Source: Meiothermus sp.
GTDB taxonomy: Bacteria > Deinococcota > Deinococci > Deinococcales > Thermaceae
Assembly (NCBI RefSeq): GCF_025056915.1
Contig: NZ_JANWVH010000017.1
Coordinates: forward strand, 1-39,908
DNA length: 39,908 bases
Reading direction: 5' to 3'
The notes beneath the pieces were generated by a model. It was not told where the DNA came from, ran no database searches, and was given only the letters and a program-made list of their open reading frames with translations. A program made the translations under genes and the position numbers. Numbering within the stretch: position 1 is the first letter of the stretch; every line of letters begins with the position of its first letter. Positions 7,852 to 14,309 of the stretch are shown here, in pieces.

Positions 7852-8098
7852 TACACAGCCTCAAAACCCATACACGCTCACAGAAGCGTGATAGCCCTCA
7901 ACCCCCTCTCTACCGCGTGGGGAGGGTTGGGGAGGGTTTATGCCAAGGCCCTCAATTCACATGATTGCATGGAGGGCCGGGTCAGCCACCCCGCCTGGCC
8001 TTCCCTGCAAGGTCGGGGGAAAACAGAGCGAGTGCAGGCTAAGATTGACTTGATTCGCTCGCCATGCGGGTGGGGTTGTACGGGCTTTTATGCGACAA
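7852..8098 (+). repeat. Dispersed repeat R1, copy 1
   Basis: About 247 bp of non-coding DNA, closely similar to 14070-14309 and more distantly to 35198-35410. Shared blocks include TACACAG, GATAGCCCTCAA, ACAGAGCGAGT and a 3' block ending ACGGGCTTTT. Two hairpins are visible: CACGCT/AGCGTG (7873-7878, 7885-7890) and CCCTCTCTAC/GTGGGGAGGG (7904-7913, 7917-7926, with two G-T pairs). No open frame is shared between the copies. It may be a MITE- or REP-like element, or an RNA-encoding element. Confidence 0.85.
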
Positions 8099-8560
8099 GG
8101 TAACATCAGGGCTGTCATTCCATCGCTTGAACTCTCTGCACACGGGAGGGGTGGTTGGGCAGAAGACAAGGATTTGGGGGCAGGGGGAGACCCACCACCA
8201 GCCTCTCTTCTACCCGTGCTTTGCCTTTCCTGCACGCCTGGAGCAGGTGCAAAGTGCAGCTTCCCTTTGGTTTCATTCACAGCCAAGTGATGCATTCCTG
8301 TAAGAAGCCTGTTTCCCCTCTGCCTGCTGGGCCCTCCATGGTTTAGACCGATACTTCGGGGGGCGTTAAGTCAAAAAAACGTGTTGGGTAGGGAGTATTC
8401 AGGAGGTTGTCGGCCAAATGCCGATCCATTGGCGTAACGAAAAGGGGCCTTTGATTAAGCATTTTTGCGCCACGTAACGGTCATTTACACGCCCTTGGCC
8501 CAGAGTTTCTCCTACTGTGGGTCTCAGTTGCTGGGCCCATCTATATAAGGAGAAAATGCC
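8099..8560. other. Gene-free stretch before the small-protein/GGDEF/CHAT cluster
   Basis: I see no credible gene here. A possible diverged R3 copy lies at about 8175-8250 (GACCCACCACCAG, then GCACGCCTGGAGCAGGT). Short stems occur at 8410-8424 (TCGGC/GCCGA) and at 8497-8503 with 8531-8537 (GGCCCAG/CTGGGCC), the second just ahead of the next gene's ribosome binding site. I looked for the conserved c-di-GMP riboswitch core and did not find it. Confidence 0.5.
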
Positions 8561-8929
8561 ATGATCACCGATAAAACACCTATCCGCCGCGAGGCCATCC
8601 TGGTCATGGATTCGCGCAATGCTTTGCGTGCCGTCCGAAACCACAGCGTTAACGGATCCTGGAGCAGGCTGTACAAGGTGGATAAACACTACCTTGACCT
8701 GAGCCTCAAGGTCGAGGGCACGGAACCCCTGCTGATAGGCAAGCTGGTCACACCGACCCAGAGCAGCGGCCAGGCCCGCTTGATGACCTGCGATGGGGGG
8801 GTGTTGCAGGAAGTGGAGTTGAGCGCTTCGGGGATGTTTCGTCTGCCGGTGCCGGCTACGGGGGTTTACCACCTCGAGATGAGTCTTGGTGAGCAGCACT
8901 TTGTGGTGCGCTCGGTGGATGTGTACTGA
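8561..8929 (+). CDS. Small beta-rich protein of a CHAT-type gene cluster, function unknown
   Basis: A 122-residue protein with no signal peptide or membrane segment. AAGGAG 8 nt before the ATG gives a strong start. The N-terminal half contains MDSRNALRAVRNHSVNGSW. The C-terminal half alternates short strands: LLIGKLVTP, QARLMTCDG, VLQEVELSASGMFRLPVPATGVYHLEMSL, then VVRSVDV. The G-x-F-x-L-P-(x)n-G-x-Y-x-L pattern is what one sees in carboxypeptidase-regulatory or transthyretin-like beta-sandwich domains. From memory, similar small proteins occur between ECF sigma factor genes and CHAT genes in other phyla; this was not checked. It is first in the cluster with the GGDEF and CHAT genes, so a shared role is likely but unproven. 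Confidence 0.75.
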   Translation: MITDKTPIRREAILVMDSRNALRAVRNHSVNGSWSRLYKVDKHYLDLSLKVEGTEPLLIGKLVTPTQSSGQARLMTCDGGVLQEVELSASGMFRLPVPATGVYHLEMSLGEQHFVVRSVDVY

Positions 8930-8977
8930 TGCAGGTTCTCGGGGATAGGTAGCGCATTGGGCCTGGAGAGTTTGGCT

Positions 8978-11005
8978 ATGTCCCAGGATCGCCCTCCCCG
9001 TCGTTTGCGTCTGGCTCGAGTGCCGCTGGAGGCCAAGGCGGGCCAGGCCCCAGGGCCGCAGGCAGTCTCGACCCAACTGATAGACCGTTTGCTTGCCGGA
9101 GGCGCTGCCCAGGCCTTCGAGCTGGGATTGGAGGAATTGCTGCGCGAACTGCCCGGGGTTGAACAGGCTTTTTTATGGGTACGGGACGCTCAGAACCGCT
9201 TTAGCATGCAGGCTTTTCGAGGGGTGCCCCAAGCCGCCCTCGAGGGCCTGGAGGCGGTCACGGAATCCTCCCTCAAGATGGCCTATCGGGGTTCATCCGA
9301 AGACTGGCTGGGTGGGCGGGCCCACCTCGACAGCGAGGAGCATGTGCTGCAACGGGTGCTGAGCACACGCGCCACCAGACAGGAACTCTCGAGCCCGGAG
9401 CCAGCCCACAACCTGACCCTGCCGCTGGTGGCCAATCGGCAGGTGTGGGCCGTTCTGCACCTGTACGGGCCTGCCCGAAGCCTGGGCCCGGCGGAGGTGG
9501 ACTGGGTTGCCCAGTTTATGGCCGGTGTGGCGCCCATCCTGCGCGAAGTGTACCTGCGCGAGGCAGCCGAGCGCCGGTCGTTGTGGCTGTCGGCCATTAA
9601 CGCCTTGTTGCGGGTTCCGCACGAGCAGCCCCTCGAGCTAGCGTTACAGGATGCCCTCGAGGAAGCCACCCGCCTCTCGGGGGCCGAAGGCGCCCGCCTG
9701 ATCGCCTTCGAAGGGCACGCCATTCGCACCATTGCCCAGGCGGGCTGGGGCTCGGGGCTGCCTGTAGAAGCAGCGATTACCCGCCAGCTAGGGGAGCGCC
9801 TGCGCGGTGGACAACAGGTGGGCATTCCCCGCTACGACCTGTATCCCGCCCATCGCCCGGAGTTGCTGGAGGCGGGGCTACGGAGCCTGTTCATCCTGCC
9901 CATCCTGCGGCAGAGCAGCGAGACCAGTGCCTTGCTGCTCTTCAGTACCCAGCAACACTGGCTGCCCGATGCCCAGACCCAGGAACTTCTCGGCGATATG
10001 GTGGCGGCTATTGGGGTGGTGCGGGTCGAGTGGACTTTGCGGCGGGAGCTGGCCTGGGCCGCCTTCACCGATCCCTTGACCGGGCTGGGCAATCGGCGGG
10101 CCTTCGAGCGCGACTTGGAAAAGCTGGCCAGCCGTGACAATGGCCGCGTGGTGGTGCTGGTGCTGCTCGACCTGGATGAATTCAAGGCCATCAACGATAC
10201 CTATGGCCACGTCCATGCCGATCACGTCCTGGTGCGGCTGGGCGGGGTGCTGCGCTCGAGGGCTCGAGCGGGCGACCGGGCGTACCGCCTGGGGGGCGAT
10301 GAATTCGCCCTAATCATCGAAGGCCCCAGCACCCTCAACCCGGCCCGCACGGCGGAGCGCTACCGGGCCTTGTTGGAGGATATTCGTGTATCAGACAGCA
10401 CCTTCTTGAGGGTTAGCCTGGGCTATGCGGTCTATCCGACCGAGGTGCCGGATATCCAAAGCCTGTGGCGCTTGGCCGACGATCAGATGTACAAGGACAA
10501 AGCCCAGCGCAAGAATCGCACCCCGCTGTTGACCCAGGGTCTGGAGAAGTCAGAGTTCATGCTTGAGCTTGAGACCCCTCTGTTCCGGCTGGCCCGTCGT
10601 CTGGCCGAGGCGTTGCAATTGAGGCCGGACGAGCAACGGGTTTTGCAAGCGAGTTGCTACCTGCTTCAAACCGCGCTTGGCGAAATTGGAACCACCCCCG
10701 ATGTGCAGATGCCTGAGATGTTGCTGCGGGAAGCAGCCCGGATGCTGATACTGGCACAGGGTCATTGGGACGGGAGGGATCAACCCCTGGCCCTGTCGGG
10801 CGAGCCCATTCCCAGGGTTGCACGTATACTGCAGGTGGCCCGGCATTTTGTTGAAGCCCTGCAACCGGTGAAAGAGCGGGCTGCCCTGAGCGTCGAGGAA
10901 GCGCTGGATTATGTTGCAAGAGAAGCTCCGAGCCGGTTCGACCCCGAGGTGGTCGAAGCTCTGCGCTCCATTCAGTCTTATCTAGGTGAAGATTTGGCCG
11001 CTTAG
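8978..11005 (+). CDS. GAF-GAF-GGDEF diguanylate cyclase with degenerate HD-GYP tail
   Basis: A 675-residue cytoplasmic protein. Residues about 30-190 and 200-355 look like two GAF-type sensor domains. A GGDEF domain follows from FTDPLTGLGNRRAF, with an intact active site GGDEF (439-443) and an inhibitory-site RAGD (430-433) exactly five residues earlier. It is therefore expected to make cyclic di-GMP from two GTP, with product inhibition. The last 150 residues resemble an HD-GYP phosphodiesterase: GHWDGRDQP (595-603) stands where HHExWDGxGYP is expected, then LSGEPIPRVARILQVA and RFDPEVVEAL. The metal-binding histidines and the GYP motif are missing, so this part is probably inactive. The ATG at 8978 is chosen over the TTG at 8957 because GGAGAG lies 7 nt before it. 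Gaps to the neighbours are 48 and 68 bp. Confidence 0.93.
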   Translation: MSQDRPPRRLRLARVPLEAKAGQAPGPQAVSTQLIDRLLAGGAAQAFELGLEELLRELPGVEQAFLWVRDAQNRFSMQAFRGVPQAALEGLEAVTESSLKMAYRGSSEDWLGGRAHLDSEEHVLQRVLSTRATRQELSSPEPAHNLTLPLVANRQVWAVLHLYGPARSLGPAEVDWVAQFMAGVAPILREVYLREAAERRSLWLSAINALLRVPHEQPLELALQDALEEATRLSGAEGARLIAFEGHAIRTIAQAGWGSGLPVEAAITRQLGERLRGGQQVGIPRYDLYPAHRPELLEAGLRSLFILPILRQSSETSALLLFSTQQHWLPDAQTQELLGDMVAAIGVVRVEWTLRRELAWAAFTDPLTGLGNRRAFERDLEKLASRDNGRVVVLVLLDLDEFKAINDTYGHVHADHVLVRLGGVLRSRARAGDRAYRLGGDEFALIIEGPSTLNPARTAERYRALLEDIRVSDSTFLRVSLGYAVYPTEVPDIQSLWRLADDQMYKDKAQRKNRTPLLTQGLEKSEFMLELETPLFRLARRLAEALQLRPDEQRVLQASCYLLQTALGEIGTTPDVQMPEMLLREAARMLILAQGHWDGRDQPLALSGEPIPRVARILQVARHFVEALQPVKERAALSVEEALDYVAREAPSRFDPEVVEALRSIQSYLGEDLAA

Positions 11006-11073
11006 ACATGGGCGATTTGCCACCTCGATTTTGTTTTTTTACATTTTTTCGCTAGCATTTAGGCGTTAATGCT

Positions 11074-13920
11074 ATGAACACCGCTGACCTGGCCCTATAC
11101 CTGCTGGACGAGCCCGACCCGCTCAAGCGGCTGGCGCGTTTAGAGCAGGCTGCGCCAGCGATAGATTTGATTGAAGTTCTCAAAGCTGAAGTAGACAACC
11201 AAAAGGATGTGGATACTGCCCGGGCCCTGCTGGCTGGGGAGCGCGCGGTCGAGGCCGCAGCCCACGTTCAGGACGCCAGGGCCCGTCCGCTGGCCCTGTG
11301 GGCCTACGCGGTGGGCCTGACCGTGCGCGGCAATTTCGCCGAGGCCATCCCGATGTATGAAGAGGCCCGCAGGGGGCTGCTGGGGCTCGGATACAAAGAA
11401 GATGCAACCCGGGCGGGAATGCGCCAGATTCAGGCGCTGGCCGTTATGGGCGACATGAACGGTGCGCTGGCCCTGGCCGAAGAAACCCGTGAGGCTTTTG
11501 TCCGGCTGGGCCTGTTCCGCGATGCTGCGCTGGTGAGCATCAATATCGGCATCATTCACTACCGCGCAGGCCGGATGCTCGAGGCCGAAGGGGCCATCAA
11601 ATATGCCCTGGAACAACTCTCCAGGGTAGGGGATGTGGTCGGTCAGGGCAAGGCCCACGGCAACCTGGCCCTCATCTACGAGGCCCAGGATCGCTACCGC
11701 GAGGCCGTGGCCCATTACCAGACCGCCCTGGAGATTTTTCGCACCCACAACCTGACCGAAGACTTTATCGGCAACAGCGTGAATCTGGCCCTGCTCTACC
11801 GCAAGGAAGGCCGCCTGAACCAGGCCCTCGACCTTCTGAGCCGGGTACGGGCCATGTACGGCAGGCTCGATGGGAACCCCAACGCTGCGTTTGCGCAGCT
11901 CGAGGAGGCCCGCATCCACCTCGATCTCAACCTGCTGACCGAGGCCCGCAAGCTCTCCCAGGAGCTGGTGGAGGTTTTTGCGGCGCGGGGGATGCAGATG
12001 GAGCAGGCCGAGGCCCTGACCACTTTGGGCAGCGCCCAGGCCAAACAGGGCAAGCTCGAGGAGGCCCGCCACACCCTGGAGCGTGCGCGGGAGGGCTGGC
12101 TCTCGCTGCAAAACGTCATCCAGGCGGCTTTGGTGGATGTTTCGGTGGCCTCCTTGTTTCTGGAGTCGGGGCGCCAGGGCCAGATTGCTGCCCTCGAGCA
12201 GGCGGTGCTGGTTGCGGGGCGGGCCATCGAGGCCCTGGGCGAGGTGCCCTCGGCCAAGGCCCTGGGGCTGAGCGTGATGGCCGAAGCCCTGCTGGACCTG
12301 GGCAACCGTCCCGAGGCCAAGCGCTATCTGGAAGAGGCGGCTTCGCTGGCGGTGGGGTTGGGCATTCCGGACCTCACCATTCGCATCGAGCGCTTGCGCG
12401 GCCAGATAGCCCTGCTCGAGAACCGTACCCAGGCCGCCGAACTGCACTTCAAACGGGCCATCGAGCGCCTCGAAGGGGTGCGGGCCAGCCTCAGCGTGGA
12501 TGAGTTCAAGTCGGCTTACCTGGGCGACAAGCTGGGCGTCTATGGCGACCTGGTCGATCTGTTGCTGGACACCCAGCGCGCCCGGGAAGCTTTTGAATAC
12601 GCCGAACGCGCCAAATCAAGGGCCCTGGTGGATCTGCTGGCCCGGGGGGGCGAAAGCCCGCGCAGGTCGGACGACCCCGAGGTCGAGCGCTTGCAACAGG
12701 AGCTTGCCCAGGCCCGCCAGGAGCTCAACCAGCACTTTCTGGCCATGGAAGCCGAATCGGCAGCAGGTACCCGCGGCAGCAACTGGGAAAAAATGGTGGC
12801 CCTCGAGGAACGGGTCACGCTGCTTATCCGCGAGCTCGAGCGCCTGCAACCCGAAATCGTCATGATCGAACAGGTGCAGGAGCCCCGCCTGCATGAGCTG
12901 CTGCAAATCCTCGAGCCTGGCACCATCCTGCTCGAGTACTTCCACACCCCCCAGGGTCTGATGGCTTTTGTGGTGAAGGGGGAAGAGGTCGAGGTGGTCC
13001 GAGGACTCGGCAGCCTCGAGCAGGTTCAGCAGCACGTCGAACAGCTCGAGTTCTTCCTCAGCCGGGTCGCTCAGGGCGGCATGATGCTGAAAATTTATGG
13101 CGAGGAGGCCCTGAAGCGCTCGGTCAACGACCAGCTCCAGGCCCTCTACCGGGTGCTCATAGAACCTCTGCCGCTTGAACTCTCGGGCCAGTCCCTCATC
13201 ATTGTCCCGCACGGGGTGCTTCATGCGGTGCCCTTCGCGGCCCTGTATGATGGCCAGCAGTACCTGCTCGACCGTGCCGAGATCTCCCTCTCGCCCAGTG
13301 CCGCCGTGTATGCCTTGTGCCGCAAACGCGTTCGGCACCACCCAGGCTCGCTGGTCGCTTTTGGGGTGCCGCTCGAGAACATTCCCCAGGCCATCCAGGA
13401 AGTGGAGCAAATCAGCCAGATTGCCCAGACGCCGCATAAGTTTGTGGGTGAGGCGGCCACCCTGCAAAACTTCTTCGCTATAGCCCCCCAGGCCGAGGTC
13501 TTGCACATTGCCACCCACGGGGCCTTCAGGCCCGACAACCCTATGTTTTCCGGGCTGCGCATGGCGGACGGCTGGCTGGCGGCCCGCGACCTCTACAACC
13601 TGCGCCTGGGGGCTGAGCTGGTCGTACTCTCGGCTTGCGAGACCGGCCTGGCCAAGCATGCCAGCGGTGACGAATTGATGGGCCTGGCACGGGGCTTCCT
13701 GTATGCGGGGACGCCGTGTTTAGTAGGCAGCCTGTGGCCGGTTCGCGACGATGCAACCGCCAAATTTATGACCACCCTCTACACCAACCTGCGGGCCGGA
13801 ATGTCGGTTGCTGCGGCTCTGCGCGAGGCCCAGCTGGCATTGCGCCAGGAGTTCCCCAACCCCTATTTCTGGTCTGCTTTTACCGTGACGGGCGACTCAC
13901 ACCGCACCGTGCAGATATAG
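11074..13920 (+). CDS. TPR-CHAT protein (caspase-like HetF-associated peptidase domain)
   Basis: A 948-residue protein without signal peptide. Residues about 30-480 are tetratricopeptide-type helical repeats, for example GKAHGNLALIYEAQDRYREA and QAEALTTLGSAQAKQGKLEEA. A linker with the family sequence FEYAERAKSRALVDLLARGG is followed by a coiled coil around 540-600. The C-terminal third is a CHAT domain, a clan CD cysteine-peptidase fold. The catalytic pair appears intact: His815 in HIATHGAF and Cys855 in LSACETG, then DELMGLARGFLYAG, GSLWPVRD and PYFWSAFTVTGD. CHAT proteins include the gasdermin-cleaving and Craspase (TPR-CHAT) proteases; substrates here are unknown. The start has only a weak AGGCG, and a poor promoter (TTGTTT 11031, TAGCAT 11053) may add to read-through from the GGDEF gene. 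R2 copy A overlaps the stop codon. Confidence 0.95.
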   Translation: MNTADLALYLLDEPDPLKRLARLEQAAPAIDLIEVLKAEVDNQKDVDTARALLAGERAVEAAAHVQDARARPLALWAYAVGLTVRGNFAEAIPMYEEARRGLLGLGYKEDATRAGMRQIQALAVMGDMNGALALAEETREAFVRLGLFRDAALVSINIGIIHYRAGRMLEAEGAIKYALEQLSRVGDVVGQGKAHGNLALIYEAQDRYREAVAHYQTALEIFRTHNLTEDFIGNSVNLALLYRKEGRLNQALDLLSRVRAMYGRLDGNPNAAFAQLEEARIHLDLNLLTEARKLSQELVEVFAARGMQMEQAEALTTLGSAQAKQGKLEEARHTLERAREGWLSLQNVIQAALVDVSVASLFLESGRQGQIAALEQAVLVAGRAIEALGEVPSAKALGLSVMAEALLDLGNRPEAKRYLEEAASLAVGLGIPDLTIRIERLRGQIALLENRTQAAELHFKRAIERLEGVRASLSVDEFKSAYLGDKLGVYGDLVDLLLDTQRAREAFEYAERAKSRALVDLLARGGESPRRSDDPEVERLQQELAQARQELNQHFLAMEAESAAGTRGSNWEKMVALEERVTLLIRELERLQPEIVMIEQVQEPRLHELLQILEPGTILLEYFHTPQGLMAFVVKGEEVEVVRGLGSLEQVQQHVEQLEFFLSRVAQGGMMLKIYGEEALKRSVNDQLQALYRVLIEPLPLELSGQSLIIVPHGVLHAVPFAALYDGQQYLLDRAEISLSPSAAVYALCRKRVRHHPGSLVAFGVPLENIPQAIQEVEQISQIAQTPHKFVGEAATLQNFFAIAPQAEVLHIATHGAFRPDNPMFSGLRMADGWLAARDLYNLRLGAELVVLSACETGLAKHASGDELMGLARGFLYAGTPCLVGSLWPVRDDATAKFMTTLYTNLRAGMSVAAALREAQLALRQEFPNPYFWSAFTVTGDSHRTVQI

Positions 13921-14069: not shown

Positions 14070-14309
14070 TACACAGTCGTAAAGATACCCATACACGCTC
14101 ACAGAAGCCTGATAGCCCTCAACCCCCTCCCTACCGCGTAGGGAGGGTTGGGGAGGGTTTATGCCAAGGCCCTCAATTCACATGAATACATGGGGGGGCA
14201 GGTCAGCCACCCCACCTGGCCTTCCCTACAAGGTCGGGGGAGAACAGAGCGAGTATTGACTTGATTTGCTCGCCATGCGGGGGGTTTGAACGGGCATTTT
14301 TTTGCGACA
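14070..14309 (+). repeat. Dispersed repeat R1, copy 2
   Basis: About 240 bp, aligning along almost its full length with copy 1 at 7852-8098. The stem CCCTCCCTAC (14125-14134) with GTAGGGAGGG (14138-14147) is perfect and has a 3-nt loop. The two differences from copy 1 in this stem keep base pairing in plus-strand RNA through U-G pairs. The left part, TACACAGTCGTAAAGATACCC, is shared with copy 3. There is no gene. Confidence 0.85.

Follow-up and report, generated by a model that had tools for sequence, protein, structure and literature searches.

A TPR-CHAT module of Meiothermus with a small beta-sandwich protein as candidate partner and a neighbouring diguanylate cyclase

A locus of three genes was analysed in a window of 39,908 nucleotides from Meiothermus sp. 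(contig NZ_JANWVH010000017.1). Our preferred reading, put forward tentatively, is that the locus holds a TPR-CHAT module in which the small protein would be the dedicated partner, substrate or inhibitor of a caspase-like protein, with the cyclase encoded between them as an accessory neighbour. We infer the partnership, the direction of control and the protease activity from comparative sequence analysis and predicted structures. CHAT is better supported as a pair with the small protein than with the cyclase: the former pairing, with its recurrent S8 neighbour, has one example outside the genus and the latter has none, and the roles of the two neighbours are assigned accordingly.

The three genes and their products

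The preliminary description placed three plus-strand genes in a row, and the ORF coordinates (Table 1) agree: the genes are co-directional within 8561-13920, with intergenic gaps of 48 and 68 bp. The start of the cyclase was assigned to the ATG at 8978, which is preceded by GGAG at 8965-8968; a TTG at 8957 could serve instead. A promoter scan of the GGDEF-CHAT gap yielded one weak promoter-like match, no better than those in shuffled sequences, and there were no RNA family matches around the three genes. The dN/dS ratios between species pairs were 0.08-0.19 for all three genes (except for one pair with identical small proteins), and this purifying selection indicates that all three are maintained proteins.

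Table 1. Coordinates of the features of the locus (positions in the window).
Feature	Position	Strand	Evidence
Dispersed repeat of ~208 bp, left copy, direct orientation	7866..8073	not assigned	
AAGGAG ahead of the small gene	8547-8552		
Small Ig-like/CarboxypepD_reg-like beta-sandwich protein, 122 aa, subfamily a	8561..8929	+	ORF, fold model
GAF-GAF-GGDEF diguanylate cyclase with vestigial C-terminal HD-GYP	8978..11005	+	ORF, Pfam
GAF domain 1 (PF13185)	9110..9541	+	Pfam
GAF domain 2 (PF01590)	9632..10009	+	Pfam
GGDEF domain, GGDEF motif and RAGD I-site intact	10061..10519	+	Pfam, alignment
Degenerate half HD-GYP (PF13487 positions 70-170), metal ligands lost	10619..10951	+	Pfam, alignment
GGDEF-CHAT gap, 68 bp, AT-rich	11006..11073	+	
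TPR-CHAT caspase-like protein, 948 aa	11074..13920	+	ORF, Pfam, structure model
CHAT domain (PF12770)	13132..13896	+	Pfam, alignment
His815 codon	13516-13518	+	CHAT homologue alignment
Cys855 codon	13636-13638	+	CHAT homologue alignment
Dispersed repeat of ~208 bp, right copy, 89% identical to left	14087..14284	not assigned	

The small protein matched no Pfam family. Its model (pLDDT 85) is all-beta with Ig-like structural matches, in agreement with the 'beta-sandwich-like' label given earlier. Weak Pfam matches to CarboxypepD_reg were obtained for 5 of 27 members of its family (best E=0.011), and no signal peptide is apparent by eye. A string resembling the PilZ c-di-GMP motif (RNALR...NHSVNG; RxxxR/NxSxxG-like) was considered and discarded, as it is not conserved in orthologues.

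The cyclase comprises two GAF domains and a GGDEF domain (Pfam, E=1e-35). The active-site motif is intact and an RxxD I-site (RAGD) lies five residues upstream, as expected of a diguanylate cyclase and as noted in the preliminary description, which had overlooked a vestigial HD-GYP at the C-terminus. Residues 555-665 form this partial domain (PF13487, E=5e-13, half of the profile aligned); compared with an intact HD-GYP protein, the HD, HHE and Asp metal ligands are gone, and the domain does not qualify as an HD-GYP phosphodiesterase. A full-length cyclase is present in 17 of the 18 genomes of the genus and in none of the other genera (61 relatives searched).

The third product matches the CHAT domain with E=4e-69 (234 bits, compared with a curated cut-off of 24), and TPRs were also matched. 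H815 and C855 are invariant across all 15 aligned homologues, which bears out the intact His/Cys pair proposed earlier. Csx29 and separase are the closest folds to the predicted structure in a PDB search, and we infer that the protein is a cytosolic cysteine protease of the separase/Csx29 type. The anti-sigma factor DdvA (PDB 8rot, 8rw5) was also among the structural matches of the model. Genome G017 encodes a further TPR-CHAT protein, distinct from this one, which has an apparent signal peptide and lies behind two co-directional genes (locus L138, 523-5628).

The trio is flanked by direct copies of a non-coding repeat, and its interpretation as a mobile element was rejected: at least 41 dispersed copies occur in this genome. 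The left copy is at most 86% identical to any copy other than the right one, and many partial copies are found in genome G013.

Distribution of the genes and of the small-protein family

Genes in relatives were called with a simple codon-usage script, so that start sites are approximate. The CHAT protein occurs in 13 of the 18 genomes of the genus (the copy in G015 is cut by a contig end). At the search stringency used, it was not detected in the family's other genera, one of which has weaker CHAT proteins. Homologues on five plasmids have unrelated neighbours. Conserved adjacency, proposed in the preliminary description as a check on a functional link, holds inside Meiothermus: the cyclase lies directly upstream of CHAT on the same strand in 12/12 genomes with a complete CHAT gene, and a small gene is upstream in nine of them. 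It does not extend to the CHAT homologues of genomes G100 and G101, which have no cyclase beside them. In G101, which belongs to another Deinococcota family, an S8 lipoprotease, a small protein and a TPR-CHAT protein are encoded in a row without GGDEF; the two closer CHAT homologues (43%) of family f3, in G100 and G101, are solitary. Within Meiothermus, the order S8 - small b2 - small a - GGDEF - CHAT is found in G002, G003 and G013 (small-protein types are defined below).

The flanks of the locus vary. Upstream are sufCBD-Rieske, mqn-type genes or others (named by sequence inspection); downstream, again by inspection, are homocitrate-synthase-like and LOG-like genes, an ABC binding protein or an SDR gene, and in the window a lipoprotein-like ORF. 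The CHAT tree agrees with the GGDEF tree, G001 and G017 being the outermost branches, and descent thus looks vertical.

The small family was searched for in Deinococcota genomes and plasmids. Between one and five copies are present per Meiothermus genome; outside the genus, two genomes of the order have members and a third gives a weak match, and none were found on plasmids. The family tree divides by genomic context (midpoint rooted; group supports 79-100). Type a adjoins GGDEF-CHAT; type b lies directly behind S8 subtilases; type b2 is found within the array described above or next to Rieske; type c (loci L083, L085, L087, L089-L094, L096 and L097) is next to a divergent Sigma70_r4 gene and a MASE9-HD-GYP gene; and type d is found elsewhere. 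In most Meiothermus genomes, type c adjoins the former gene and is followed a few hundred bases downstream by the latter, which is intact; G007 has two near-identical type c loci on different contigs (L089 and L090). In several Meiothermus genomes the S8 and small genes are immediate neighbours, the S8 proteins being subtilase lipoproteins. A lipoprotein signal is visible in several of the subtilases (L098 65-1963, L126 632-1929, L074 6412-8127); in those of Meiothermus, GFNSWAGG-like tandem repeats separate the N-terminal region from the catalytic domain, and many related S8 copies are present in G100 and G101.

Five genomes are devoid of CHAT (G006, G008, G009, G011 and G014). All five keep the cyclase, near which no CHAT relics were found. 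Intact small genes of types a, b, b2 or d are present in 12 of 13 genomes with CHAT versus 0 of 5 without (Fisher p=0.0007, with the genomes treated as independent despite their kinship); the intact small genes of the latter five are of type c only. In G008, a decayed type a relic, missing the conserved W-S-R-L-Y stretch, lies upstream of the cyclase. The co-absence of small and CHAT genes may also reflect shared ancestry. Three genomes (G010, G012 and G016) have CHAT without a type a gene; two of these keep b2 elsewhere, and G012, which is 84% complete, shows none. The dN/dS of CHAT in this clade, which has lost type a, is 0.33-0.45 versus about 0.1, as calculated from few substitutions; the rise is counted in favour of the partnership.

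Alternative readings of the locus

Under the preferred reading, the locus would be a TPR-CHAT protease module that belongs to the genus Meiothermus and is passed on vertically. CHAT would have the small protein as its dedicated partner, in a relation like that of Csx29 to Csx30: the small protein would most likely be a substrate or an inhibitor that binds in the TPR groove or on the surface of CHAT. The same family would also serve exported S8 subtilase lipoproteins. The GAF-GGDEF protein would be a sensory cyclase in its own right, whose gene came to lie upstream of CHAT in the ancestor of Meiothermus; it may be co-transcribed with CHAT without being a required part. Against the partnership, the clade without type a keeps CHAT, the closer f3 homologues stand alone, and members of the small family also adjoin non-proteases (Sigma70_r4 with MASE9-HD-GYP; leuS/oxidoreductase). 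The three genes could instead form no functional unit and be ordinary neighbours kept by vertical descent across short gaps that were never broken, which we regard as rather unlikely. The congruent trees fit plain vertical descent, a gap of ~100 bp offers little room for breakpoints, and the GGDEF-CHAT gap, which measures 24-152 bp in relatives, has no conserved sequence or common element; adjacency through descent alone is weak evidence of function because the gap is short. On the other hand, the GGDEF-CHAT core stayed unbroken while the flanks were rearranged in several ways, small and CHAT genes are absent together, and another family has an S8 - small - CHAT array of its own.

The preliminary description suggested, from gene order, a regulatory link through c-di-GMP or through GAF-sensed signals that activate the protease, and named the small protein as the first substrate to try. 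In a fuller version of this reading, GAF-sensed signals would drive c-di-GMP synthesis, c-di-GMP or the cyclase itself would switch CHAT on or off, and the small protein would be receptor or substrate. We consider such gating unlikely. The unbroken adjacency within the genus and the purifying selection on GGDEF speak for it, as do the GGDEF motif, intact in 10 of the 12 CHAT genomes, and the proximity of one small-protein subfamily to an intact MASE9-HD-GYP. The two exceptions are an SGDEF in G010 and a frameshift in G016. The latter is a single base in a G7 run and is given little weight because it may be a sequencing error; the G010 gene was tried as a pseudogene and rejected as such, since the TAG in it is the natural stop, reached a few codons early. 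GGDEF is also a rare signal generator in conflict systems that use caspase-like peptidases (PMC7159879). The link is nevertheless not supported, because all five genomes devoid of CHAT still have the cyclase, the f3 CHAT homologues have no adjacent cyclase, and none of the papers searched joined 'CHAT domain' with c-di-GMP, or with diguanylate cyclase, GGDEF and TPR together. No c-di-GMP-binding motif was recognised either, the candidate string of the small protein not being conserved.

A defence system against phage, or one acting through cell death, in which CHAT would be the effector seems improbable to us. It would fit the Csx29-like predicted fold, the absence of CHAT from several Meiothermus lineages and a PADLOC match to BovA, which is weak (E=1e-10) and confined to the CHAT part. 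Ten neighbours were scanned and no convincing defence gene was recognised among them; a response regulator and a trypsin-like protein gave partial matches only. Vertical inheritance, a conserved chromosomal site beside suf genes in part of the genus and the low score on the Csx29 model (see below) also argue against it. A wider role for the small family is conceivable, if quite unlikely: as a lineage-specific adaptor, it could offer one recognition module to two unrelated types of protease, TPR-CHAT in the cytosol and S8 lipoproteases outside, and to c-di-GMP/sigma-region-4 regulators, in a network of regulated proteolysis in Deinococcota with a logic like that of Csx29-Csx30-sigma.

To our knowledge, Craspase apart, a partner or substrate is known for few of the TPR-CHAT proteases of bacteria. 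The small family, which accompanies both CHAT and S8 proteases, provides a definite candidate for a substrate or an inhibitor, in thermophiles that can be cultivated. A c-di-GMP switch on a caspase-like protease, if proven, would give this messenger a new output.

Comparison with known systems

Csx29 of the type III-E Craspase cleaves Csx30, which inhibits a sigma factor (PMC10028731). It shares with the Meiothermus protein the TPR and CHAT parts with a His/Cys dyad, and is the best PDB structural match of the predicted model (8eey, E=6e-17); it is encoded near its partner Csx30, as the Meiothermus CHAT is near the small protein. Sequence similarity is, however, confined to residues 704-907, and the score on the NCBIfam Csx29 model is 53 bits compared with a curated cut-off of 300, so that membership of Craspase fails. 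No Cas7-11, Csx30 or other CRISPR genes were recognised by eye among the neighbours in 17 genomes.

Separase (peptidase C50) is eukaryotic and controlled by securin. Helical repeats and a caspase-like domain are common to both proteins, and separase structures (9hn5, 7nj1) match the predicted model, at an identity of only about 12%. BovA of the Borvo system matches residues 776-926 of CHAT; the N-terminal part is unmatched, the similarity thus falling short of full length, and there is no defence context around the Meiothermus gene. In the VMAP-type conflict systems (PMC7159879), a peptidase and, rarely, a GGDEF domain are brought together in one system. No vWA, MoxR, VMAP or STAND was identified at the Meiothermus locus, where the domains are on separate genes. 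The GGDEF of these caspase-bearing systems is the nearest precedent for a combination of CHAT with c-di-GMP.
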